From positions 1 through 47,561 of the forward strand of contig JANWYN010000111.1 of NCBI GenBank assembly GCA_025055235.1: a stretch of 47,561 bases of DNA, given 5' to 3'. A program made the translations under genes and the position numbers. Each line of letters opens with the position of its first letter. Position 1 is the stretch's first letter. Positions 22,388 through 38,605 of the stretch are shown piece after piece. A model generated the notes under the pieces. It searched no databases. It worked only from the letters and a program-made list of their open reading frames with translations, and was not told the DNA's origin. The stretch comes from Candidatus Roseilinea sp. Its GTDB lineage: Bacteria > Chloroflexota > Anaerolineae > J036 > Brachytrichaceae.

Positions 22388-24790
22388 CTATGCCCCATAC
22401 GGCACCCACACGTTCTTCACCTGCGTCGCCTGGCGCAGCATCTCGGCCTGCTCGGCAGCGCTGAGCGTGAACCAGTCGCGCGGCCGGCCGTAGTTCACCC
22501 AGGTGCGCTTCAGGTTGTTCACCGAGGCGCGCTCGACCATCGCGCTGCCTTCCGCGCTCCCGAAATACCACATCGCATCCACATCGGCGTGCTCGGCCAG
22601 CACCTTCGCCAGCTCGTCGCGCGCGCCGGTGACGATGTTCACCACGCCACCGGGCACATCGCTGGTGTCGAGCACTTGATACAAGTCGGTCGCTGAAAGC
22701 GGATGTCGCTCCGATGGCGTAAGCACGACGGTGTTGCCCATGCCGATCGCGGCGGCCATGAGGGTGACCGGCGCCAGCAGCGGCGCTTCGTCCGGACAAG
22801 CAATGCCGATCACACCGACCGGCTCGTTGAACGCCATGGTGATGGCGCGGAACGGCGTGCGGTGCACAGCGCCGTCGTATTTGTCCGCCCATGCGGCGAA
22901 GGTGAACAAGCGGTCTATGGCAACTTCTACCTCGTGCTCGGCGTCGTTCGCGTCGCAGCCGGTCTGCTGCACCAAGCGCGCGGCGAACTCCGCCCGGCGC
23001 GCGCTCAGATTCTCGGCGATGTAGTACAGGATCTGGGCGCGATTGTGCGCCGTCTGGTCGCCCCAGCCGGAGGCCGCGCGCGCGGCCTCGACGGCGTTTC
23101 GGATGTCCTTCCGGTTACCCTCGCCGACTTCGCCGATCGGGCTGCCATCCGCGCCATAGATCACCCGGCTGTAGCCGGAGTCGGGCCGCGCCTGCTTGCC
23201 GCCGATGTAGAGCTTGGGCGTGCGGTCAATCTGGGAATTGAGAATTGAAAATTGAGAATTGAAAAGGGCGCTCTTCGTACGCTGCGATCCCTTTTTCAAT
23301 TTTGAATTTTCAATTTTCAATTCTTTGAGCTTGACGTATTCGAACAGCCCTTCCTTGCCGCCTTCGCGTCCGAAGCCGCTCTCGCGATAGCCGCCAAAGC
23401 CGGACGCAGCGTCGAACAAGTTGGTGCAGTTGATCCAAACCACACCGGCCTTGATCTTGCCGGCCACGTCGAGCGCGAGGTTGATGTCTTCGCTCCATAT
23501 GCTGGCGGCCAAGCCGTAGCGCGTGTTGTTGGCTAACGCCACGGCTTCTGCCGGCGTGCGGAAGGTCATTGCCACCAGCACCGGCCCGAAGATCTCCACC
23601 TGCGCGATGGTCGCCGCAGGCGAGACGTCGGTGAACAGGGTAGGGGGATAGAAGTAGCCCTCGGCCGGGCAAGCCCAACTCGGCTGCCACATCGTCGCAC
23701 CTTCGGCCTTGCCTTGCTCGACCAGCCGGGTGATCTTTTGCAACTGCGGCGGCGCGATGATCGCCCCGATGTCTATCGCCTTGTCCAGCGGTCTCCCGAC
23801 GCGCAGCTTCTCCATCCGCGCGCGCAGCTTGGCGTAGAACTTGGGCGCGACGCCCTCCTGCACGAGCAAGCGCGATCCGGCGCAGCACACCTGCCCCTGG
23901 TTGAACCAGATCGCATCCACCACGCCCTCGATCGCGCTGTCTAAGTCGGCGTCGTCGAACACGATGAACGGCGATTTGCCGCCCAGCTCGAGCGAGAGCT
24001 TCTTGCCGCTGCCGGCCGTCGCAGCACGGATCTTCTTGCCGACTTCGGTGGAGCCGGTGAAGGCGATCTTGTCCACGTTGGGGTGATTGACGATCATTTC
24101 GCCCACCTGGCCGTCGCCGGTGACGATGTTGACCACGCCGGGCGGCAGGTGGATCGCCTCGCAGATCTCGGCGAAGCGCAGCGCGGTGAGCGGCGTCCAC
24201 TCGGCGGGCTTGAGCACGACGGTGTTGCCCATCGCCAGCGCCGGCGCGATCTTCCACGCCAGCATCAGCAGCGGGAAGTTCCACGGGATGATCTGCCCGA
24301 TTACGCCCAGCGGCGCATAGTCGGCCAGCTCGGTCTCCATCAACTGCGCCCAGCCGGCATGATGATAGAAATGGCGCGTGACGAGCGGGATGTCAATGTC
24401 GCGCGTCTCGCGGATGGGTTTGCCGTTGTCCAGCGATTCGAGCACGGCGAACAGGCGCGCGTGCTTCTGGATTTGGCGCGCCATCGCGTAGAGGTAGCGC
24501 GCGCGCACATGGCCAGGCGTTTGCGACCACGACTTGAATGCCTTGCGCGCCGCAGCGACGGCTGCATTCACCTCGTCCTGCGTCGCCTGGGTGACGTAGG
24601 CGATGGGCTGGCCGGTCGCCGGGTTCACGCTGTCGAACAAGCGTTGTGGATCGGGCTTTGTCCACTGGCCGGCGATGAAGTGGCCGAAGGTGCGCCCGTG
24701 CTCGTCCAACCAGGCCAGCGCCGGCTTGGCGCTCTCCAGCGCCGGGCCGTAGGCCATCGTGTGGAAGATCTCTGCGATTTGCGTGGTCAT
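22388..24790 (-). CDS. ALDH16-type double-domain aldehyde dehydrogenase
   Basis: An 800-residue protein with two aldehyde dehydrogenase domains, as in the ALDH16 family (about 800 residues in animals and bacteria). Domain 1 (about 1-490) is complete: PWNFPLL, FTGSTEVGK, the general base E268 in LELGGKSP and the catalytic C302 in GQVCCAGSR. Domain 2 (about 523-800) keeps a Rossmann-type part (VGVIGIACPDEAPLL, GNTVVLTPSERHPL) but has no catalytic Cys motif, so it is the expected pseudo-domain. It oxidises aldehydes with NAD(P)+; the substrate is unknown. The interdomain linker (about 491-522, KIENSKLKKGSQRTKSALFN) is encoded by an inverted heptamer element. The downstream end of the FMO gene lies 14 bp upstream, suggesting co-transcription. 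Confidence 0.93.
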   Translation of the reverse strand: MTTQIAEIFHTMAYGPALESAKPALAWLDEHGRTFGHFIAGQWTKPDPQRLFDSVNPATGQPIAYVTQATQDEVNAAVAAARKAFKSWSQTPGHVRARYLYAMARQIQKHARLFAVLESLDNGKPIRETRDIDIPLVTRHFYHHAGWAQLMETELADYAPLGVIGQIIPWNFPLLMLAWKIAPALAMGNTVVLKPAEWTPLTALRFAEICEAIHLPPGVVNIVTGDGQVGEMIVNHPNVDKIAFTGSTEVGKKIRAATAGSGKKLSLELGGKSPFIVFDDADLDSAIEGVVDAIWFNQGQVCCAGSRLLVQEGVAPKFYAKLRARMEKLRVGRPLDKAIDIGAIIAPPQLQKITRLVEQGKAEGATMWQPSWACPAEGYFYPPTLFTDVSPAATIAQVEIFGPVLVAMTFRTPAEAVALANNTRYGLAASIWSEDINLALDVAGKIKAGVVWINCTNLFDAASGFGGYRESGFGREGGKEGLFEYVKLKELKIENSKLKKGSQRTKSALFNSQFSILNSQIDRTPKLYIGGKQARPDSGYSRVIYGADGSPIGEVGEGNRKDIRNAVEAARAASGWGDQTAHNRAQILYYIAENLSARRAEFAARLVQQTGCDANDAEHEVEVAIDRLFTFAAWADKYDGAVHRTPFRAITMAFNEPVGVIGIACPDEAPLLAPVTLMAAAIGMGNTVVLTPSERHPLSATDLYQVLDTSDVPGGVVNIVTGARDELAKVLAEHADVDAMWYFGSAEGSAMVERASVNNLKRTWVNYGRPRDWFTLSAAEQAEMLRQATQVKNVWVPYGA
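23235..23323. repeat. Inverted-arm heptamer element encoding the ALDH16 linker
   Basis: The left arm, about 34 bp, has GAATTGA/GAATTGA/AAATTGA units. The centre is about 20 bp (23269-23288). The right arm of about 35 bp has the same units in reverse complement (TTTCAAT/TTTGAAT/TTTTCAA). The A+T-rich arms stand out in a GC-rich gene. The reading frame is open through the whole element. Confidence 0.88.
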
Positions 24791-26127: not shown

Positions 26128-26236
26128 AGACAGGATGAACAAGATGAACAGGATTAGATAGAAAGCGACAAGCGTATCTTAAACTATCCCACAAGAAACC
26201 TGTAAATCCTGTAAATCCTGTAAATCCTGTCAACCC
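26128..26236. repeat. Inverted-arm 9-bp element between lutC and FMO genes
   Basis: The left arm repeats ACAGGATGA/ACAAGATGA/ACAGGATTA. The right arm repeats CCTGTAAAT three times and then CCTGTCAAC, the reverse complement type. About 45 bp of less repetitive sequence lies between. The right arm begins at the lutC stop codon and the left arm ends just before the FMO start. Confidence 0.85.
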
Positions 26237-27996: not shown

Positions 27997-29409
27997 TCAC
28001 GCATCTGTCTGCTTGCCCCGGCGCCGCTTCAGCCGCTCGCGGAACGACGATTCCGCGAACGCCGGAAAGTCGCGCTGCTTAGTCCACGCGTCGAACGGCG
28101 GTGGCAGTGACTTGATCTTGCCGCTGCGGCCGGCCAGCAGGCGCGTCGCCATGCCGGCCATCTTGCCGCCCAGCCGGTAGAGCACCGGCGACTTGAATGC
28201 GGTTGCCCACAGCCACATGCCGATGCGCCAGCCGGGCGTCGGGTCGCCGGCCTGCACCAGGTCGCGCCGCAGCCTGAGCAGCATGTCGGGGATGGCGATC
28301 TCGACCGGACAGGCCGCTTGGCACGCGCCGCACAGGCTGCTGGCGTAAGGCAGCTTCGGCGCGCGGGTCGGGCCGAGCAGCAGCGGCGTGACGATCGAGC
28401 CGATCGGCCCCGGATATACCCAGCCGTAGGCGTGCCCGCCGATGTTCTGATACACCGGGCAGGCGTTCAGGCATGCGCCGCAGCGGATGCACGCCAGGCT
28501 CTCGGCATACTCCGTGCCCAGGATGCGCGACCGGCCGTTGTCCATGATGACCAGGTAGAAGACGTCCGGCCCGTCCGGCTCGTCCGCGCGGCGCGGGCCG
28601 CTCATCAGGTTGTTATAGACCGACAGGCGCTGGCCGGTGGCGCTGCGGGCGAGCAGTTGCACCAGCACGGCGTAGTCTTCCCAGGTGGCGATCACCTTCT
28701 CGATCCCCATCACGGCCACATATACCCGCGGCGTGCTGGTGGAGAGCCGGTTGTTGCCTTCGTTCTCGACCGTAGCGATCGTGCCGGTCTCGGCGATGGC
28801 GAAGTTGACGCCGCTGATGCCCATGTCGGCCTCGAGATACTTCCGGCGCATCACGCCGCGCACAAAGCGGGTCATGTCCTCCGGCTTGTCGGTCATCGGC
28901 ATGCCCAGCTTGTCGTGCAGGAGCTGCGCCGTCGCCTCCTTAGTCTTGTGCAGCATGGGGAAGACGATGTGGCTAGGCGTCTCGCCGGCGAGCTGGACGA
29001 TGTACTCGCCCAGGTCGCTCTCCGTCACCTCGATGCCGTTTGCCTCCAGCGCGTGGTTCAGCTCGCTCTCCTCGGTGACCATGCTCTTGCCTTTGGTCAC
29101 GCGCCGCACGTCGTGCTTCCGGCAGAGGTCGAGGATGATCTGGTTCAGTTCGGCGGCGTCGCGCGCCCAGAGCACGTGGCCGCCGTTGGCGATCACGTTG
29201 CGTTCGAGCTGTTGGAGCAGGTCGGGCAAATGGTTCAGGGCACGTTCGCGGGCCAGGCGTGCCTGATGGCGCAGTGCATTCGCGTCGGTCGTCTCGCCCA
29301 TTGCTACGATGCGGTTGTTCACGCCGCGCGTCGTGCCGCGATCCAGCGCAGTTTGCAGTTGAATGTCGTTGAGGGCGATGATGACGGAGCGGGAGAAGTT
29401 ATCTTTCAT
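27997..29409 (-). CDS. lutB: Lactate utilization protein B (iron-sulfur, LUD domain)
   Basis: A 470-residue protein. The N-terminal LUD domain (about 60-300: KGKSMVTEESELNHALEANG, then ADMGISGVNFAIAETGTIAT) is followed by a two-cluster ferredoxin-like region: CIRCGACLNACPVY and SLCGACQAACPVEIAIPD. LutB carries the two [4Fe-4S] clusters of the LutABC lactate oxidation complex. The ATG at 29409 lies inside the left arm of the heptamer element that ends the four-helix cassette. The start MKDNFSRSV is therefore made of repeat sequence, and the native start may have been replaced on insertion. Confidence 0.93.
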   Translation of the reverse strand: MKDNFSRSVIIALNDIQLQTALDRGTTRGVNNRIVAMGETTDANALRHQARLARERALNHLPDLLQQLERNVIANGGHVLWARDAAELNQIILDLCRKHDVRRVTKGKSMVTEESELNHALEANGIEVTESDLGEYIVQLAGETPSHIVFPMLHKTKEATAQLLHDKLGMPMTDKPEDMTRFVRGVMRRKYLEADMGISGVNFAIAETGTIATVENEGNNRLSTSTPRVYVAVMGIEKVIATWEDYAVLVQLLARSATGQRLSVYNNLMSGPRRADEPDGPDVFYLVIMDNGRSRILGTEYAESLACIRCGACLNACPVYQNIGGHAYGWVYPGPIGSIVTPLLLGPTRAPKLPYASSLCGACQAACPVEIAIPDMLLRLRRDLVQAGDPTPGWRIGMWLWATAFKSPVLYRLGGKMAGMATRLLAGRSGKIKSLPPPFDAWTKQRDFPAFAESSFRERLKRRRGKQTDA

Positions 29410-29435
29410 CTTTCATCTTTCATTTATCATTTCTT
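29401..29435. repeat. Left inverted arm of four-helix-bundle cassette (ATCTTTC)n
   Basis: On the plus strand ATCTTTC occurs three times with 7-bp phasing, then the degenerate ATTTATC and ATTTCTT. The arm contains the stop codon of the four-helix-bundle gene (29427-29429) and the start codon of lutB (29407-29409). Confidence 0.9.
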
Positions 29436-29828
29436 TGGAGGTTTGGGCGTCGTGGCTTTCTTTTGGCTCAAACGGGCTTTGATCGTCCGCTGAGTTGCGC
29501 CGAAGATGGCCAGCAGTTCGTTTGCTTCCTGCGTCAGGGCCGACAACTTGGCTGCCGGCATGATATCGCCTTCTGCCAGGAGTTCGAGCCAAAACAGCGT
29601 TTCGTCCGTCTCTTCGATGACGACGCCTAACTTCGAGAGAAAGTCCCTATCGGATCGTGCACGGCACACAGCACGATAGTTCGCGCCTACGGATGTGGCG
29701 GAGCGGAGCAGTTGTCGCCCAATCACCCGCGCTTCTTCGCGCTTCGGTAGCGCCGCATAAAGTTTCAACACCTGCAGCCCGAACTGCTTCGTGCGCACTT
29801 TCATCTGTTCCGTGGTCATGCTACCCAT
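29427..29828 (-). CDS. Four-helix bundle protein (S23/23S rRNA intervening-sequence protein family)
   Basis: A 133-residue helical protein. The ATG at 29828 has GGAGG five bases upstream; the 20 codons further upstream are only repeat sequence. Core residues match the family, which is known from ORFs inside 23S rRNA intervening sequences and as free-standing genes: KLYAALPKREEARVIGRQLL, then RSATSVGANYRAVCRARSDRD (split here for length) and IEETDETLFWLELL. The Arg-rich helices suggest nucleic acid binding, though the function is not established. The gene lies inside an element with inverted (ATCTTTC)n / (ATGAAAG)n arms at 29401-29435 and 29839-29886, exactly between the lutA stop and the lutB start. 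Confidence 0.9.
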   Translation of the reverse strand: MGSMTTEQMKVRTKQFGLQVLKLYAALPKREEARVIGRQLLRSATSVGANYRAVCRARSDRDFLSKLGVVIEETDETLFWLELLAEGDIMPAAKLSALTQEANELLAIFGATQRTIKARLSQKKATTPKPPKK

Positions 29829-29838
29829 AGCTGCCTCC

Positions 29839-29886
29839 GATGAAAGATGAGAAATGAAAGATGAAAGATGAAAGATGAAAGATATC
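29839..29886. repeat. Right inverted arm of four-helix-bundle cassette (ATGAAAG)n
   Basis: On the plus strand ATGAAAG ATGAGAA ATGAAAG ATGAAAG ATGAAAG ATGAAAG is phased by 7 bp and is the reverse complement of the left arm. Its outer end touches the lutA stop codon at 29885-29887. Confidence 0.9.
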
Positions 29887-30616
29887 AAACTCTTCCCGTC
29901 AGCACCTCTGCCACATGCACCACGCGGCGGGGCGAGCCGGCGCGCGACAGGCCGCCGTTGATGTGCATCATGCAGCTCGCATCGCCGGTGATCACCACGT
30001 CGCAGTCAACGCCGTTGATGGCGTTGAGCTTGTCTTGCAGCATCGCGCCGCTGATCGCGCTCATCTTGATCGCGAACAAGCCGCCGAAGCCGCAGCATTG
30101 GTCATGGCCGGGCATCTCCACCAGCGTCAGGTTCTTCACATTGCTGAGCAGGGCGCGCGGCTGGCGTGCGATCCCCAGGCCGCGGTAGCCGTGGCAGGCG
30201 TCGTGGATGGCGGCGCGCGTGGGGCGAGGCAGCGACGCACCCACGTCGGTCACGCCTAAGACGTCCACCAAATACTGCGTCAGCTCATAGGTGCGCGCGG
30301 CGATGCGCTTGGCCTCCTCGAACCGGCGATGGCCGCGAAACAGCTCCGGGTAGTAGTGGTGCGCCATCGCCGCGCACGATCCCGACGGCGTGACGATGGC
30401 GTCGTAGCCGGCGAATACGTCCAGGAAGTGCTCGGCTACCTCGCGTGCTTCGCGGGTGAAGCCGGAGTTGAACGCCGGCTGGCCACAACACGTCTGCGCT
30501 TCGGGAAATTCCAGCTTCACCCCTTGCCGCTCCAGGATCTCGAAGGCAGCCTCGCCGATGTGAGGAAAGATCGTATCAACGATGCATGTCACGAAGAAAG
30601 CTACGCGGTTCGTCAT
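29885..30616 (-). CDS. lutA: Lactate utilization protein A, (Fe-S)-binding
   Basis: A 243-residue protein of the CCG-motif (cysteine-rich domain) family, as in LutA and glycolate oxidase subunit GlcF. It has two CCG domains: QTCCGQPAFNSGF near residue 45 and HDQCCGFGGLFAIK near residue 178. The start MTNRVAFFVTCIVDTIFP matches LutA; an upstream extension to 30685 is repeat-like. It is the first lut gene in the transcription direction. The next coding sequence is the inserted four-helix cassette rather than lutB. Confidence 0.93.
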   Translation of the reverse strand: MTNRVAFFVTCIVDTIFPHIGEAAFEILERQGVKLEFPEAQTCCGQPAFNSGFTREAREVAEHFLDVFAGYDAIVTPSGSCAAMAHHYYPELFRGHRRFEEAKRIAARTYELTQYLVDVLGVTDVGASLPRPTRAAIHDACHGYRGLGIARQPRALLSNVKNLTLVEMPGHDQCCGFGGLFAIKMSAISGAMLQDKLNAINGVDCDVVITGDASCMMHINGGLSRAGSPRRVVHVAEVLTGRV

Positions 30617-30718
30617 TACGATGATGCTAGCATGAACCCCCGCTGCTGATTCGACGATCCTGCCCTCCCACTTCCTACTTCCCACTCCCCAATTCCCCTG
30701 CCCCGATCCCAGCTACAA

Positions 30719-33299: not shown

Positions 33300-34985
33300 A
33301 TGCGCGACTTCGCTGTGCTCTACGCCGAGCTGGACGCAACCAACAAGACCAACGAGAAGGTCGCGGCGCTGGTGCGCTACTTCCGCAGCGCACCGGCAGC
33401 GGACGCTGCCTGGGCGATCTACTTCCTTATCGGCCGCCGGCCGCGCCAAGCCGTGCCCACCGCCAGCCTGCGCGCCTGGTCTGCCGAAGCCGCCGGCATC
33501 CCCGATTGGCTCTTCGAGGAGTGCTACGCCGCTGTGGGCGACCTGGCCGAGACGATGGCCCTGCTCGGCATGCGCTCTAATGGCGTGCCTGAAGCCGCCA
33601 CTGCATCGCGCTCGCTGGCCGAGTGGATCGAAGATGTGCTGTTGCCGTTGCGCGAGCTAGACGAGCCGGCCAAGAAGCGCGCCGTGCTGGCAGCTTGGGC
33701 ATCGCTCGAGCCGCGCGAGCGCTTCGTCTGGAATAAACTGATCACCGGCGCGTTTCGCGTGGGCGTCTCGCAGAAGCTCGTCGTCCGCGCGCTGGCCGAG
33801 GTGAGCGGCGTGGACGAAGCGACGCTGGCGCACCGGCTGATGGGCGAGTGGCAGCCCGGCGCGCGCTTCTTCGCGCAACTCGTCGCGCCCGAGACCGGCG
33901 ACGCCGACATCAGCCGGCCGTATCCGTTCTTCCTCGCCTATGCGCTGGAGAGCAAACTGCCCACCGACCCGCGCGGCCGCTTGCTCGATGCCGATCCGGC
34001 TGCGTTTGCCGAGACGTTGCAAGCGGCGCTCGGCGATGTGCGCGACTGGCAGGCCGAATGGAAGTGGGATGGCATCCGCGCCCAGCTCATCCGCCGGCGC
34101 GGGCAGACCTTCCTCTGGTCGCGCGGCGAGGAGCTGGTGACCGAGCGCTTCCCGGAGATCACTGCCATCGGCGACGTTCTGCCGGATGGCGTCGTGTTGG
34201 ACGGCGAGATCATGCCGTTCAAGGATGGGCGCGCCCTGCCGTTCAGCCGGCTGCAAACGCGCATCGGCCGAAAGGCGTTGACGAAGAAGATCCTGGCCGA
34301 GGCGCCGGTCGTCTTGTTCGCCTACGACCTGCTGGAGATCGCCGGTGAGGATGTGCGCGACAAGCCGTTGCGTTGGCGGCGCGCGCAGTTAGAACGGCTC
34401 GTGCGGGAATGCAATTCGCCTGCGCTCAAGCTCTCGCCGATCGTTGAGGCCGAATCGTGGGAGGCACTGGGGCGATGGCAGCGGCGCAGCCGCGAACACG
34501 ACGCCGAGGGGCTGATGCTCAAGCGGCTGGATAGCGCCTATGGGGTGGGGCGCATTGTCGGCGATTGGTGGAAGTGGAAGGTCGCGCCTTACACCGCCGA
34601 CGCCGTGCTGATCTATGCTCAAGCCGGCCATGGCCGCCGCGCCAGCCTGTTCACCGATTACACCTTCGCCGTCTGGGATGGTGACCCGCGCGATGGCGGC
34701 CGGCTGGTGCCGTTCGCCAAGGCCTACTCCGGCCTGACCGACGCCGAGATCCGCCGCGTGGACGCCTTCATCCGCGCCAACACGCTGGAGAAGTTCGGGC
34801 CGGTGCGCACGGTGAAGCCGCAACTGGTGTTCGAGTTGGGCTTCGAGGGCATCCAGCGTTCCTCGCGCCACAAGAGCGGCATCGCCGTGCGCTTCCCGCG
34901 CATCTTGCGCCTGCGCGACGACAAACGCATCGAAGACGCCGACACGCTGGACACGATCCGCGCCCTCCTGCCGCACGAGCCGTAA
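33300..34985 (+). CDS. ATP-dependent DNA ligase (ligase-associated repair set)
   Basis: A 561-residue ATP-dependent DNA ligase. An N-terminal DNA-binding domain (about 1-225) is followed by the adenylation domain with the nucleophile K255 in EWKWDGIRAQL, then LDGEIMPF (motif III), FAYDLLEI, EGLMLKRLDS (motif IV) and WWKWKVAP (motif V), and an OB-fold domain to the C-terminus. This is the bacterial single-protein type with an N-terminal DNA-binding domain, unlike short LigC/LigD forms. It seals nicks in an incompletely known DNA damage response together with the neighbouring exonuclease, helicase and PdeM. Its stop codon is the first base of the hairpin at 34984. Confidence 0.95.
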   Translation: MRDFAVLYAELDATNKTNEKVAALVRYFRSAPAADAAWAIYFLIGRRPRQAVPTASLRAWSAEAAGIPDWLFEECYAAVGDLAETMALLGMRSNGVPEAATASRSLAEWIEDVLLPLRELDEPAKKRAVLAAWASLEPRERFVWNKLITGAFRVGVSQKLVVRALAEVSGVDEATLAHRLMGEWQPGARFFAQLVAPETGDADISRPYPFFLAYALESKLPTDPRGRLLDADPAAFAETLQAALGDVRDWQAEWKWDGIRAQLIRRRGQTFLWSRGEELVTERFPEITAIGDVLPDGVVLDGEIMPFKDGRALPFSRLQTRIGRKALTKKILAEAPVVLFAYDLLEIAGEDVRDKPLRWRRAQLERLVRECNSPALKLSPIVEAESWEALGRWQRRSREHDAEGLMLKRLDSAYGVGRIVGDWWKWKVAPYTADAVLIYAQAGHGRRASLFTDYTFAVWDGDPRDGGRLVPFAKAYSGLTDAEIRRVDAFIRANTLEKFGPVRTVKPQLVFELGFEGIQRSSRHKSGIAVRFPRILRLRDDKRIEDADTLDTIRALLPHEP

Positions 34986-35020
34986 TCATCAATCATGATT
35001 CATGATTGATGATTGATGAT
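34984..35020. repeat. 14-bp perfect hairpin joining ligase stop and helicase start
   Basis: AATCATCAATCATG at 34984-34997 faces its exact complement at 35001-35014 with a 3-nt loop. GATTGAT-type heptamers are phased by 7 bp. The hairpin begins in the ligase stop codon and ends at the helicase start codon. Confidence 0.85.
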
Positions 35021-37643
35021 TGGCCTTGGTTATCATGCGACCTTGTTGAGCGCACCTACAGAAGCAGCCCTATCGCACATCGAAGCCTGGTTTGCCGCGC
35101 GCGGCTGGCAGCCGTTCGACTTTCAGTGCCAGGCGTGGCGCGCATATTTGCAAGGCCGCAGCGGGTTGATCCACGCGTCCACCGGCGCCGGCAAGACCTA
35201 CGCCGTGTGGCTCGGGCCGCTGGCCGAGGCGCTGGCCGAGCGAGGCGCAACTTGCGGCGAGGCAGAGCACATCGGCAACTCATCATCGAGGCAACAGGCT
35301 AAGCGCGCCCGGCGCGATGATGCGCCGCCGCTGCGCGTGCTGTGGGTCACACCGCTGCGTGCGCTGGCTGCCGATACCGAGCAGTCGCTGCGCGAGCCGG
35401 TCGAGTCGCTCGGATTGAACTGGACGATCGAGCGCCGCACCGGCGATACCGCCACATCGCTGCGCGCCAAGCAAAAATCACGCCTGCCCACCGTCCTCGT
35501 CACTACGCCGGAGAGCCTATCGCTCATGCTGAGCTGGCCCGACGCGCGCGAGCGCTTCGCCGGCTTGCGCTGCGTCATCGTGGACGAATGGCACGAGTTG
35601 CTCAGCACAAAGCGCGGCACGCAAACCGAACTCGCGCTGGCGCGGCTGCGCTGTTGGCAACCAAATTTGCGCACCTGGGGATTGAGCGCGACCTTGGGCA
35701 ACCTGGATGTGGCGCTGCACGCGCTGATGGGGATGAACGGCTCGGATGCGACGCTGATTCGCGCGGAGCTGCCCAAAGAGGTCGTCATCGAGTCGCTGCT
35801 GCCGGAGCAGGTAGAGCGCTTTCCCTGGGCCGGCCACCTGGGCTTGGTGATGCTGCCGCGCGTATTGGAGGCGATCGAGGCCAACGCCAGCACGCTGGTG
35901 TTCACCAACACCCGCTCTCAAACTGAGATGTGGTATCAGGCCATCCTAGAAGCGCGCCCGGAGTGGGCCGGCCAGATCGCGTTGCATCACGGCTCGCTCG
36001 ATAAAGTCGAACGCGAGTTCGTGGAGCGTGGGCTGAAAGAGGGCCGGCTGCGCGCAGTGGTGTGCACGTCCTCGCTCGACCTGGGGGTGGATTTCTCGCC
36101 GGTGGATTGTGTGTTGCAAGTGGGCAGCCCGAAAGGTGCAGCGCGCTTGCTGCAGCGCGCCGGCCGCAGCGGCCATGCCCCGGGGCGACCGAGCCGGGTC
36201 GTCTGTGTGCCGACGCATGCGCTCGAGCTGGTCGAATTCGTTGCCGTGCGCGACGCCATCCGGCAGGGGCGCATCGAGGCGCGCCTGCCGCTGAACAAGC
36301 CGCTCGACGTGCTCGCACAACACGTGGTCACCGTGGCGGCCGGGGGCGGCTTTCGGAGCGACGCGTTGCTCGCCGAGGTGCGCACCGCGTATGCCTATCG
36401 CGATCTCAGCGATGACGAATGGGGCTGGGTGCTCGACTTCGTGACGCGCGGCGGCCGGGCGCTCAACGCCTATCCCGAATTCCGGCGCGTCGTCTGTGAC
36501 GACGGCATGTATCGCGTGGCCGATGCGGGCATCGCGCAACGCCATCGCCTGTCCATCGGCACGATCGTCAGCGAGGCGTCCATCAACGTGCAATACCTGA
36601 AGGGTGGGCGCTTGGGCACGGTGGAGGAATCGTTCGTGAGCTGGCTGAAGCCGGGCGAGTGCTTCTTATTCGCCGGGCGATTGCTGGAGTTCGTGCGCTT
36701 GCAGGACAACACGGCCTGGGTGCGCCGCGCCGCCGGCAAGCGCCCGTCCGTGCCGCGCTGGATGGGCAGCCGCATGCCGCTCTCCACTGAGCTGGCGCAC
36801 GTGCTCCGCGAGAAGCTGGATCAGGCGCGTCTCGGGCGATTCGACGATGCCGAGATGGCAGCCGTCCGGCCGCTGCTGGAGCTGCAGGCGCGGCGCTCCA
36901 AGCTGCCCGAGCCGGACGAGTTGCTGATCGAGCGCGTGCAGACGCGCGAAGGGCATCACCTGTTCTTCTTCCCGTTCGACGGCCGCGCCGTCAACGAAGG
37001 GCTGGCGGCGCTGGTGGCCTATCGCCTCTCGCGCCTTCAACCGATCTCGTTCTCGTTCGCCATCAACGACTATGGCTTCGAGCTGCTCTCCCCTGATCGC
37101 GCAGATTTGGACCGCAGAGGCGCGGAGATGGCGGAGAGTGGGGAGTTAGGCCAAGGAGGCGCGGAGAAAGCGGAGGTGAAGAAGCAAAGAATCTCCGCGT
37201 CTTCGCTACTCCGCAGTTTATTCAGCCCGGATAACCTGGCCGAGGATTTGGTTGCCAGCTTGAATGCGGCGGAGTTGGCGCGGCGGCAGTTCCGCGAGGT
37301 AGCGCGCATCGCCGGCCTGGTGTTCGAAGGGCTGCCCAGCCGGCGCAAGTCGAGCCGGCAGCTTCAGGCGTCCAGCACGCTGTTCTACGAGGTGTTCAGC
37401 AAATACGATCCAGACAATCTGCTGCTGACGCAAGCCCGGCGCGAGGTGCTGGAGCGGCAGTTGGAAGAAAGCCGGCTGGCGCGCGCTCTGCAACGCATCT
37501 CGCGCGGGCGCATCACGCTGCTGGACGTGGAGAAGCCGACGCCGTTGGCCTTCCCGTTGATGGTGGATCGCCTGCGCGAGCAGCTCAGCAGCGAGACGCT
37601 GCTCGACCGCATTCGCAAGATGCAGGCGCAGTTCGAGGAGTGA
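35016..37643 (+). CDS. Ligase-associated DEXH-box DNA helicase (Lhr-like)
   Basis: An 875-residue superfamily 2 helicase of the Lhr group. Motif I STGAGKTY (K60) is followed by the DEXH box VDEWHELL, motif III LSATLGN, and the second RecA domain with VFTNTRSQTEMWYQ and RAGRSGHAPGR (motif VI). A winged-helix/Lhr C-terminal region follows. ATG 35016 lies at the end of the hairpin repeat; TTG 35013 is also possible. Residues about 699-734, in the C-terminal region, are encoded by a GCGGAG-type repeat insert and are absent from the expected helicase architecture. It works with the ligase, exonuclease and PdeM. Confidence 0.92.
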   Translation: MIGLGYHATLLSAPTEAALSHIEAWFAARGWQPFDFQCQAWRAYLQGRSGLIHASTGAGKTYAVWLGPLAEALAERGATCGEAEHIGNSSSRQQAKRARRDDAPPLRVLWVTPLRALAADTEQSLREPVESLGLNWTIERRTGDTATSLRAKQKSRLPTVLVTTPESLSLMLSWPDARERFAGLRCVIVDEWHELLSTKRGTQTELALARLRCWQPNLRTWGLSATLGNLDVALHALMGMNGSDATLIRAELPKEVVIESLLPEQVERFPWAGHLGLVMLPRVLEAIEANASTLVFTNTRSQTEMWYQAILEARPEWAGQIALHHGSLDKVEREFVERGLKEGRLRAVVCTSSLDLGVDFSPVDCVLQVGSPKGAARLLQRAGRSGHAPGRPSRVVCVPTHALELVEFVAVRDAIRQGRIEARLPLNKPLDVLAQHVVTVAAGGGFRSDALLAEVRTAYAYRDLSDDEWGWVLDFVTRGGRALNAYPEFRRVVCDDGMYRVADAGIAQRHRLSIGTIVSEASINVQYLKGGRLGTVEESFVSWLKPGECFLFAGRLLEFVRLQDNTAWVRRAAGKRPSVPRWMGSRMPLSTELAHVLREKLDQARLGRFDDAEMAAVRPLLELQARRSKLPEPDELLIERVQTREGHHLFFFPFDGRAVNEGLAALVAYRLSRLQPISFSFAINDYGFELLSPDRADLDRRGAEMAESGELGQGGAEKAEVKKQRISASSLLRSLFSPDNLAEDLVASLNAAELARRQFREVARIAGLVFEGLPSRRKSSRQLQASSTLFYEVFSKYDPDNLLLTQARREVLERQLEESRLARALQRISRGRITLLDVEKPTPLAFPLMVDRLREQLSSETLLDRIRKMQAQFEE
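37110..37216. repeat. Inverted-arm GCGGAG repeat inside the DEXH helicase
   Basis: Left: GCAGAGGCGCGGAGATG and GCGGAGAGT, then GGCGCGGAGAAAGCGGAGG, in about 9-bp units. Right: TCTCCGCGTCTTCGCTACTCCGC, the reverse complement type. The frame is open throughout. It resembles the dispersed CGCAGAGG-type repeats of many environmental genomes. Confidence 0.8.
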
Positions 37644-38357: not shown

Positions 38358-38512
38358 TGAAGCGCATGTGGCCCGCAGGGGCTGCTCACCAGCAGTAGGT
38401 AGGCGCATGATGAACGGCGTGCTGTGGCGCTGGAACACGCGCCAGCCCCTGCCCAACAGCGTCCCAACAAGCCGACGCTGCGGTTCACGGTGCAGAACTA
38501 GGTGAGCAGGAT

Positions 38513-38561
38513 GCAAGACGCAGGACTCAGGACAGGATGCGTATTACGTCCTGCGTCTTGC
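38513..38561. repeat. Inverted 14-bp repeat of TCTTGCG-type heptamers
   Basis: GCAAGACGCAGGAC at 38513-38526 is exactly mirrored at 38548-38561, with a 21-nt centre. The TCTTGCG unit is shared with the tract at about 5.15 kb. It lies in the 248-bp gap between two convergent genes. Confidence 0.85.
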
Positions 38562-38605
38562 GTCTCACGTTCTACTCGTATGCTCTGCGTTTCCCCCAGC
38601 GTCCC

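Follow-up and report, generated by a model that had tools for sequence, protein, structure and literature searches.

Intervening sequences (IVSs) with an open reading frame (ORF) of the S23 family occur in the 23S rRNA of Coxiella, Leptospira and other bacteria. Repetitive extragenic palindromes (REPs) have fixed sequences on which a Y1 transposase acts (RAYT, TnpA_REP). In the Coxiella IVS, tandem heptamers lie beside the S23 ORF and vary in number between strains, the ORF is reported to be decaying and probably not expressed, and rRNA IVSs were suggested to be remnants of transposition with no known parent (PMC4990558, cited from an extract). That extract, like the title of the structure 2rld, still gives the function of S23 proteins as unknown. 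A family link between S23 and Avd is stated in an extract of PMC10053308. Tandem TAACTGA heptanucleotide repeats of cyanobacteria and Beggiatoaceae are intergenic and lie near start codons (PMC4679880, in extract); the term S23 is absent from that paper. No link between S23 genes and heptad arms outside rRNA was found in titles and abstract openings of open-licence PubMed Central articles, among the matches listed. Here we describe an S23 gene enclosed by two inverted arrays of a heptad repeat in a 47,561-nt contig of Candidatus Roseilinea sp. (JANWYN010000111.1, the whole of which is called the window), where the unit fills the space between the genes lutA and lutB.

The cassette spans nt 29400–29884 on the minus strand. 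Its S23 gene (29427–29828, minus strand) encodes a protein of 133 residues, begins ATG GGT AGC ATG, and is read in the same sense as the operon from its own ribosome-binding site, a Shine-Dalgarno-like GGAGG at 29834–29838 (minus strand) directly upstream of the ATG. The 5′ arm (29839–29884) is (ATCTTTC)n on the minus strand with a period-7 score of 28, and the 3′ arm, downstream in the direction of transcription (29400–29434), is (ATGAAAG)n on the minus strand, ATCTTTC on the plus strand, with a score of 20. Tandem heptads were called as ATCTTTC x3.3 at 29401–29423 and GATGAAA x6.4 at 29839–29883. The 35-nt arms 29400–29434 and 29850–29884 show 94% complementarity and are separated by 415 nt. 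The 5′ arm ends at 29884 and directly adjoins the lutA stop codon (29885–29887), and the 3′ arm includes both the S23 stop (29427–29429) and the lutB ATG (29407–29409), the latter being the opening of the last heptad. The arrays and the S23 gene occupy the whole space from the lutA stop to the lutB start. Inverted pairs with clearly periodic arms and a loop of at least 250 nt number two in the window plus 400 kb of a congener: the lut cassette, and a congener pair joining two separate arrays.

The 133-residue protein scores 78.2 bits against TIGR02436 (cut-off 24) and 52.1 bits against PF05635 (cut-off 33.8). An AlphaFold2 monomer model gives a four-helix fold with a pLDDT of 96. Foldseek matches it to 2rld (E 4.5e-6, TMt 0.83–0.91) and 2gsc (E 2.4e-3, TMt 0.80–0.86), and more weakly to Avd of diversity-generating retroelements (8ub7, 4dwl; TM about 0.6–0.84, E 0.05–0.4). 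Among S23 pairs of the genus, dN/dS ranges from 0.03 to 0.24 in the 10 of 16 pairs for which it could be computed (3 pairs were identical and 3 saturated), indicating that these genes are under purifying selection. The preliminary description of this DNA, made from its letters alone, had proposed an S23/IVS-family gene here, heptamer arrays of opposite orientation filling the lutA-lutB gap, and one arm touching the lutA stop while the other takes in the stop of the S23 gene and the start of lutB. The profile scores, the arm complementarity and the reading of the sequence bear this out; the description had not mentioned that short heptad arrays are common in the source genome.

We read the locus as a small mobile cassette, consisting of one S23 gene between two inverted short-tandem-repeat arrays (usually of 7 nt), which has settled between lutA and lutB. 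The probability of this reading is put at about 0.82. It draws on the anatomy of the locus, the recurrence of the arms in many phyla, the correlation of repeat word with protein lineage, the presence, absence, decay and replacement of cassettes at orthologous sites, and one transfer limited to the cassette.

Inverted arms recur beside other S23 genes. For each locus, matched inverted arms were scored against the 95% and 99% levels of swapped flanks. The genome of the window (G000) has 11 S23 matches, nine of them intact and not Avd-like. Inverted arrays of a short tandem repeat bracket every one of these nine, and each has a word of its own; the other two are a fragment and an Avd-like gene with a reverse transcriptase nearby. 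Across the genus, 29 of 36 loci exceed the 95% level (36 of 38 matches were tested), and six of the seven that fail are fragments (L010, L048, L063, L065, L066) or the Avd-like gene (L011). Control families of G000 pass far less often, namely 3/17 Uma2 genes and 3/19 acetyltransferase genes (17 of 19 and 19 of 20 rows used); at two Uma2 loci there is one strong heptad array, on a single side only.

The association extends well beyond the genus. In a sample of one genome per species (84,980 species), the best 80 of at least 564 confirmed S23 relatives were taken; among the 78 testable loci, 55 exceed the 95% level and 50 the 99% level. The latter carry the labels Planctomycetota, Bacteroidota, Acidobacteriota, Proteobacteria, Verrucomicrobiota, candidate phyla radiation (CPR) bacteria, Omnitrophota, Chloroflexota and others, and come from bins as well as isolates. 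A second set comprised every S23 match in 29 genomes reached via 30 loci (127 rows, 100 taken): 93 of the 100 exceed the swap 95% level and 83 the 99% level of same-genome swaps. Without the 32 loci shared with the first set, the figures are 61/68 and 52/68 (21 genomes). Among the 78 arms from the genus and the first set that score at least 13.5, 65 have a period of 7 nt, 11 of 8 nt and 2 of 9 nt; in the second set the period is 7 nt in 67 of 79 arms. Heptad arrays can also be seen by eye in each of six cyanobacterial plasmid copies, two of which are homologous.

The words of the arms are not random with respect to the protein between them. Similarity of S23 proteins correlates with similarity of repeat words (r 0.217, p 0.0002, Mantel test on 55 distinct sites); for 97 pooled sites r is 0.22, with none of 2000 permutations as high, and for sites with different taxon labels only (phyla, partly classes of one phylum) the value is 0.20. 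When words are compared as reverse complements, as a control, the correlation is negative (-0.11 and -0.09). There is also a weak word consensus of 3.42 bits, compared with a mean of 2.80 and a maximum of 3.03 for shuffled words. The 5′ arm is purine-rich at 104 of 129 loci and pyrimidine-rich at 22; that of the lut cassette is pyrimidine-rich. Within a genome, none of 85 pairs share the exact 7-nt word. On these sequence comparisons, the repeat word belongs to the element and follows the lineage of its S23 protein. The word at lutA-lutB is similar to the start of lutB (ATGAAAGAT) and, in one congener, to the end of lutA (GATTTGA). Copying of the arms from the target was considered as a general rule and dropped, since the empty site at L003 has no such match by eye and the words track the protein.

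Comparison of orthologous sites in eight congeners (G001–G008) reveals the coming and going of these cassettes. The lutA-lutB gap measures only 41–64 nt and has no S23 match in G001, G003, G005, G007 and G008; G002 carries an S23 gene 86% identical with the same word, G006 has other heptad arms, and no lutA was found ahead of lutB in G004. A decayed S23 of another lineage at the G006 junction is not claimed; the 32-aa ORF between the arms there scores 35 against S23 relatives, inside the range of 300 shuffles (mean 23.6, maximum 40.7). Site L001 is occupied in G000 only, with a 51-nt empty form in four congeners, 132 different bases in G006, another ORF in G003 and partial alignment in G004 and G007. 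The G003 ORF in this gap (L322) resembles, by eye, a Phd/YefM-like antitoxin. Site L005 is likewise occupied in G000 only, with gaps of 44–80 nt in six congeners and two aligning on one side only. Site L003 has a full cassette in each of G000 and G004, one with an internal deletion in G006 and a remnant in G001; it is cleanly empty in G008, nearly empty in G005, and holds 198 other bases in G002. Thus four sites (lut, L001, L003, L005) have empty or decayed alleles.

The history of some inserts also departs from that of their flanks. At site B, the S23 gene of G008 shows 0/324 mismatches to that of G006 or G001, whereas the flanks show 92/1200 and 104/1200 (p 1.9e-10 and 9.1e-12); the shift in identity lies at the outer borders of the arms, whose repeat number differs. 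For the pair G006-G001 the flanks are closer (28/1200 mismatches), and there the exchange may include the flanks. Site C resembles site B more weakly (p 2e-7). The opposite pattern is seen in the pair L006/L055, in which S23 has 72% DNA identity versus 92–97% in the flanks (p 1.8e-26), and in L007/L053 S23 identity is 64%. At sites E and C/L007 the S23 gene is far more different than the flanks, and F, G and J lean likewise; cassettes at E and C/L007 therefore replace each other or evolve fast. Insert histories are discordant with the flanks at sites B, C, E and C/L007, and the empty and full alleles and the transfer at site B imply that the cassette behaves as a mobile unit. The mobility proposed in the preliminary description has stood up well: the lutA-lutB site is empty in five of eight congeners, three other sites have empty forms, arms recur beside most S23 copies tested in the genus, the cross-phylum sample and the second set, and the transfer at one site is limited to the cassette. 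The opposite picture, with the same gene everywhere, no empty sites and unrelated arms elsewhere, is not what is found.

Several observations weigh against this reading. An intact S23 copy of the genus, L062, has no arms, and 23 of the 78 cross-phylum loci and 7 of the 100 copies in the second set fail the arm test; in the plasmid copy L370 the arrays are direct, not inverted. The correlation between word and protein is modest. At sites A, D and H (H being the lut site) the S23 gene is neither closer nor more distant than the flanks; at F and G it differs somewhat more than they do. There is no transposase gene in the cassette. Inspection of four junctions by eye revealed no target-site duplication, but the arms hide short ones. 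Near-identical cassettes at unrelated sites within a genome were not found: the S23 pairs of the genus with an identity of 70% or more all lie at orthologous sites, and the 126 same-genome pairs outside it include three with identities of 71%, 77% and 86%, none of them recent. Insertion at a new site is therefore inferred mainly from the empty sites. The closest same-genome pair, L221 and L246 (86%), lies about 4 kb apart on contig G067:C107 of an Omnitrophota bin.

The first alternative is that the functional unit is RNA, in the manner of an IVS. The arms would pair in the lut mRNA, RNase III would cut the stem, and lutA and lutB would be split apart, with the S23 message either set free or lost. 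The predicted fold suits this account: the cassette RNA is predicted to fold into an uninterrupted helix of 24 bp whose loop holds the ORF (z = -5.58, none of 100 shuffles as good). So does orientation, as the S23 gene in two sets of loci is on the same strand as both flanking genes in 50 cases, antisense to both in none, and mixed in 13, the 50 including orthologues, fragments and one Avd-like gene. However, ordinary genes share the sense bias (5:1 and 6:1), and two of six cyanobacterial plasmid copies are antisense to both neighbours, so that insertion in sense only is rejected as a strict rule. One of the plasmid cassettes, L368, lies antisense between nrdB and nrdA in Nostoc. Arm mismatches that would remain G-U pairs in the sense RNA (93) are also outnumbered by the antisense type (126; p 0.03, or p 0.25 in a sign test by locus), which gives no support to selection for a sense-RNA stem. 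We consider an RNA unit of this kind rather unlikely.

The likeness to rRNA IVSs, proposed in the preliminary description, is borne out in part. Like these, the lut cassette has an S23-family ORF in the loop of stem-forming terminal inverted repeats, and it is of similar length, 485 nt compared with 444 nt in Coxiella (per the extract of PMC4990558). The heptamers beside the Coxiella ORF, as described there, support the kinship. Unlike rRNA IVSs, the cassette lies between protein genes, and the window has no rRNA at the Rfam gathering level. Cutting of the stem by RNase III, which the preliminary description thought possible, would be compatible with the predicted fold, but the G-U comparison shows no upkeep of a sense-RNA stem. 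Unlike the Coxiella ORF of the extract, the lut ORF has a Shine-Dalgarno-like site, and the genus genes are under purifying selection. The lut cassette may thus work like an IVS by analogy, but it is not an IVS by definition. Elsewhere, Rfam scans of 24 of the 80 cross-phylum S23 loci, and of L060, gave no rRNA match, the other loci having been checked with nine short rRNA words only.

It could also be that the cassette spreads only through homologous recombination at fixed sites, insertion at new sites being ancient and rare. All closely related S23 pairs of the genus being orthologous accords with this. Against it, the identity block at site B ends at the arms and not in the flanks, and the insertions at L001 and L005 are each found in a single genome. 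On balance we regard spread by this route alone as rather unlikely.

A third possibility is that a host enzyme acting on hairpins mobilises the cassette in trans, either a Y1/RAYT transposase or a reverse transcriptase with S23 in the role of Avd, with ORF-less hairpins as miniature partners. The fold shared with Avd favours it, as does the dispersal of ORF-less heptad hairpins, one of which lies inside a gene of G004. Against it, a reverse transcriptase was found in 17 and a Y1 transposase in 26 of 35 S23-bearing genomes, so neither looks obligatory, although the assemblies are incomplete and the absences soft; an obligatory partner of either kind is not supported. The lut cassette is not part of a diversity-generating retroelement, as the window is contig C56 of G000 and both reverse transcriptase matches are elsewhere, on C93 and C142. 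Like Avd, the lut S23 protein has the four-helix fold, but Avd adjoins a reverse transcriptase, and the Avd-like L011 lacks heptad arms. The cassettes resemble REPs and REPINs in that dispersed ORF-less heptad hairpins exist alongside a gene-carrying form; they differ in that the word varies between loci and S23 is not a Y1 nuclease. Mobilisation in trans by such an enzyme is, in our estimate, unlikely. L011 itself (G000:C142:16041-19352) holds an Avd-like gene close to both a reverse transcriptase (G000:C142:18188-18778) and a variable-repeat-like stretch, and is probably a diversity-generating retroelement.

ORF-less inverted-heptad hairpins are common in the window and lie in intergenic gaps at 1805–1878, 23232–23322, 34984–35022 and 38506–38565, recognised partly by eye. 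The one at 38510–38564 belongs to a GACGCAG/GCAAGAC family with full or partial matches at 21 other places in G000 and some in congeners. In G004, an AATTGAG heptad hairpin (L323) sits within an acetyltransferase-like coding region beside site L001, and it is missing from the stretches of other congeners compared at this site (both by eye).

That S23 is an ordinary operon gene whose arms are neutral microsatellites of a heptad-rich genome is very improbable. Heptad arrays are indeed common (7 nt is the dominant non-codon tandem period of the window with 13 arrays, compared with one of 8 nt, and 400 kb of a congener hold 33 period-7 arrays compared with 2 in a triplet-shuffled control), but control families lack matched inverted arms, at 83 of 100 loci the arms fit each other better than they fit the arm of a different S23 gene in that genome (above the 99% level of same-genome swaps), the association spans many phyla, and the words track the protein. 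The arms are also distinct from the repeats of PMC4679880. Like TAACTGA, as given in its extract, they are tandem 7-nt intergenic arrays close to start codons; unlike them, TAACTGA is one fixed word in direct repeats, with one inverted case in the extract.

For the mobile cassette, a simple model can be proposed. The arms would form a hairpin in DNA, RNA or both, and the S23 protein, as a relative of the retroelement helper Avd, would bind it and help the unit to spread by means of host enzymes. The arms would lengthen and shorten by slippage. The S23 ORFs of 23S rRNA IVSs would be the same kind of unit at another address. A wider proposal, which we hold tentatively and at somewhat short of even odds, is that S23 genes across bacteria are the protein half of a hitherto unrecognised class of mobile cassettes with lineage-specific inverted tandem-array ends. 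In this class, which would lack its own transposase, the pentameric S23 would recognise its own word and drive spread; rRNA IVSs would be one branch, ORF-less hairpins the miniatures, and GxxExxY genes with 9-nt arms a sister class. If S23 genes generally carry and move with their own arms, the parent element of the IVSs is in plain sight in many phyla, part of the heptad repeats in many genomes has an origin, and the S23 protein and its arm word form a directly testable pair.

The GxxExxY genes (TIGR04256) of relatives show inverted arms above the swap 95% level at 25 of 30 loci (L106–L135), with a period of 8–10 nt in 23 of 24 and of 9 nt in 14. Like the S23 cassettes, they consist of a single small gene with inverted arms; unlike them, the arm period is 8–10 and not 7, and the protein is unrelated. 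They are possibly a sister class. The split in period, with S23 mostly at 7 nt and GxxExxY at about 9, suggests that the element, rather than the host, determines how long the arms are. The window has an ORF-less hairpin at 26130–26230 with 9-nt arms (ACAGGATGA / CCTGTAAAT), a period as in the GxxExxY cassettes. Uma2 (PF05685) came to attention through a distant lutA-lutB junction, L037, where the family was named by eye; as a third armed family it is rejected for G000, its pass rate being that of a control.

S23 matches on plasmids number 34 in 72,556 records and are mostly cyanobacterial, and one query at E 1e-5 gave no S23 match in 50,697 phage records. L370, with the direct arrays, lies between cas6 and cas4 on a Pseudanabaena plasmid.

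The host genes of the lut cassette are lutB (27997–29409, minus strand; LutB/LldF family, TIGR00273, 473.6 bits against a cut-off of 444.8), whose start codon lies inside the 3′ arm, and a lutA-like gene with CCG domains (29885–30685, minus strand; PF02754, 117.7 bits; start as in the ORF list, unchecked), whose stop codon abuts the 5′ arm. Distant lutA-lutB junctions hold a GxxExxY-like ORF between arms (L028, by eye) or ORF-less heptad hairpins (L029–L031), and the gap looks as if it were a recurrent landing place.

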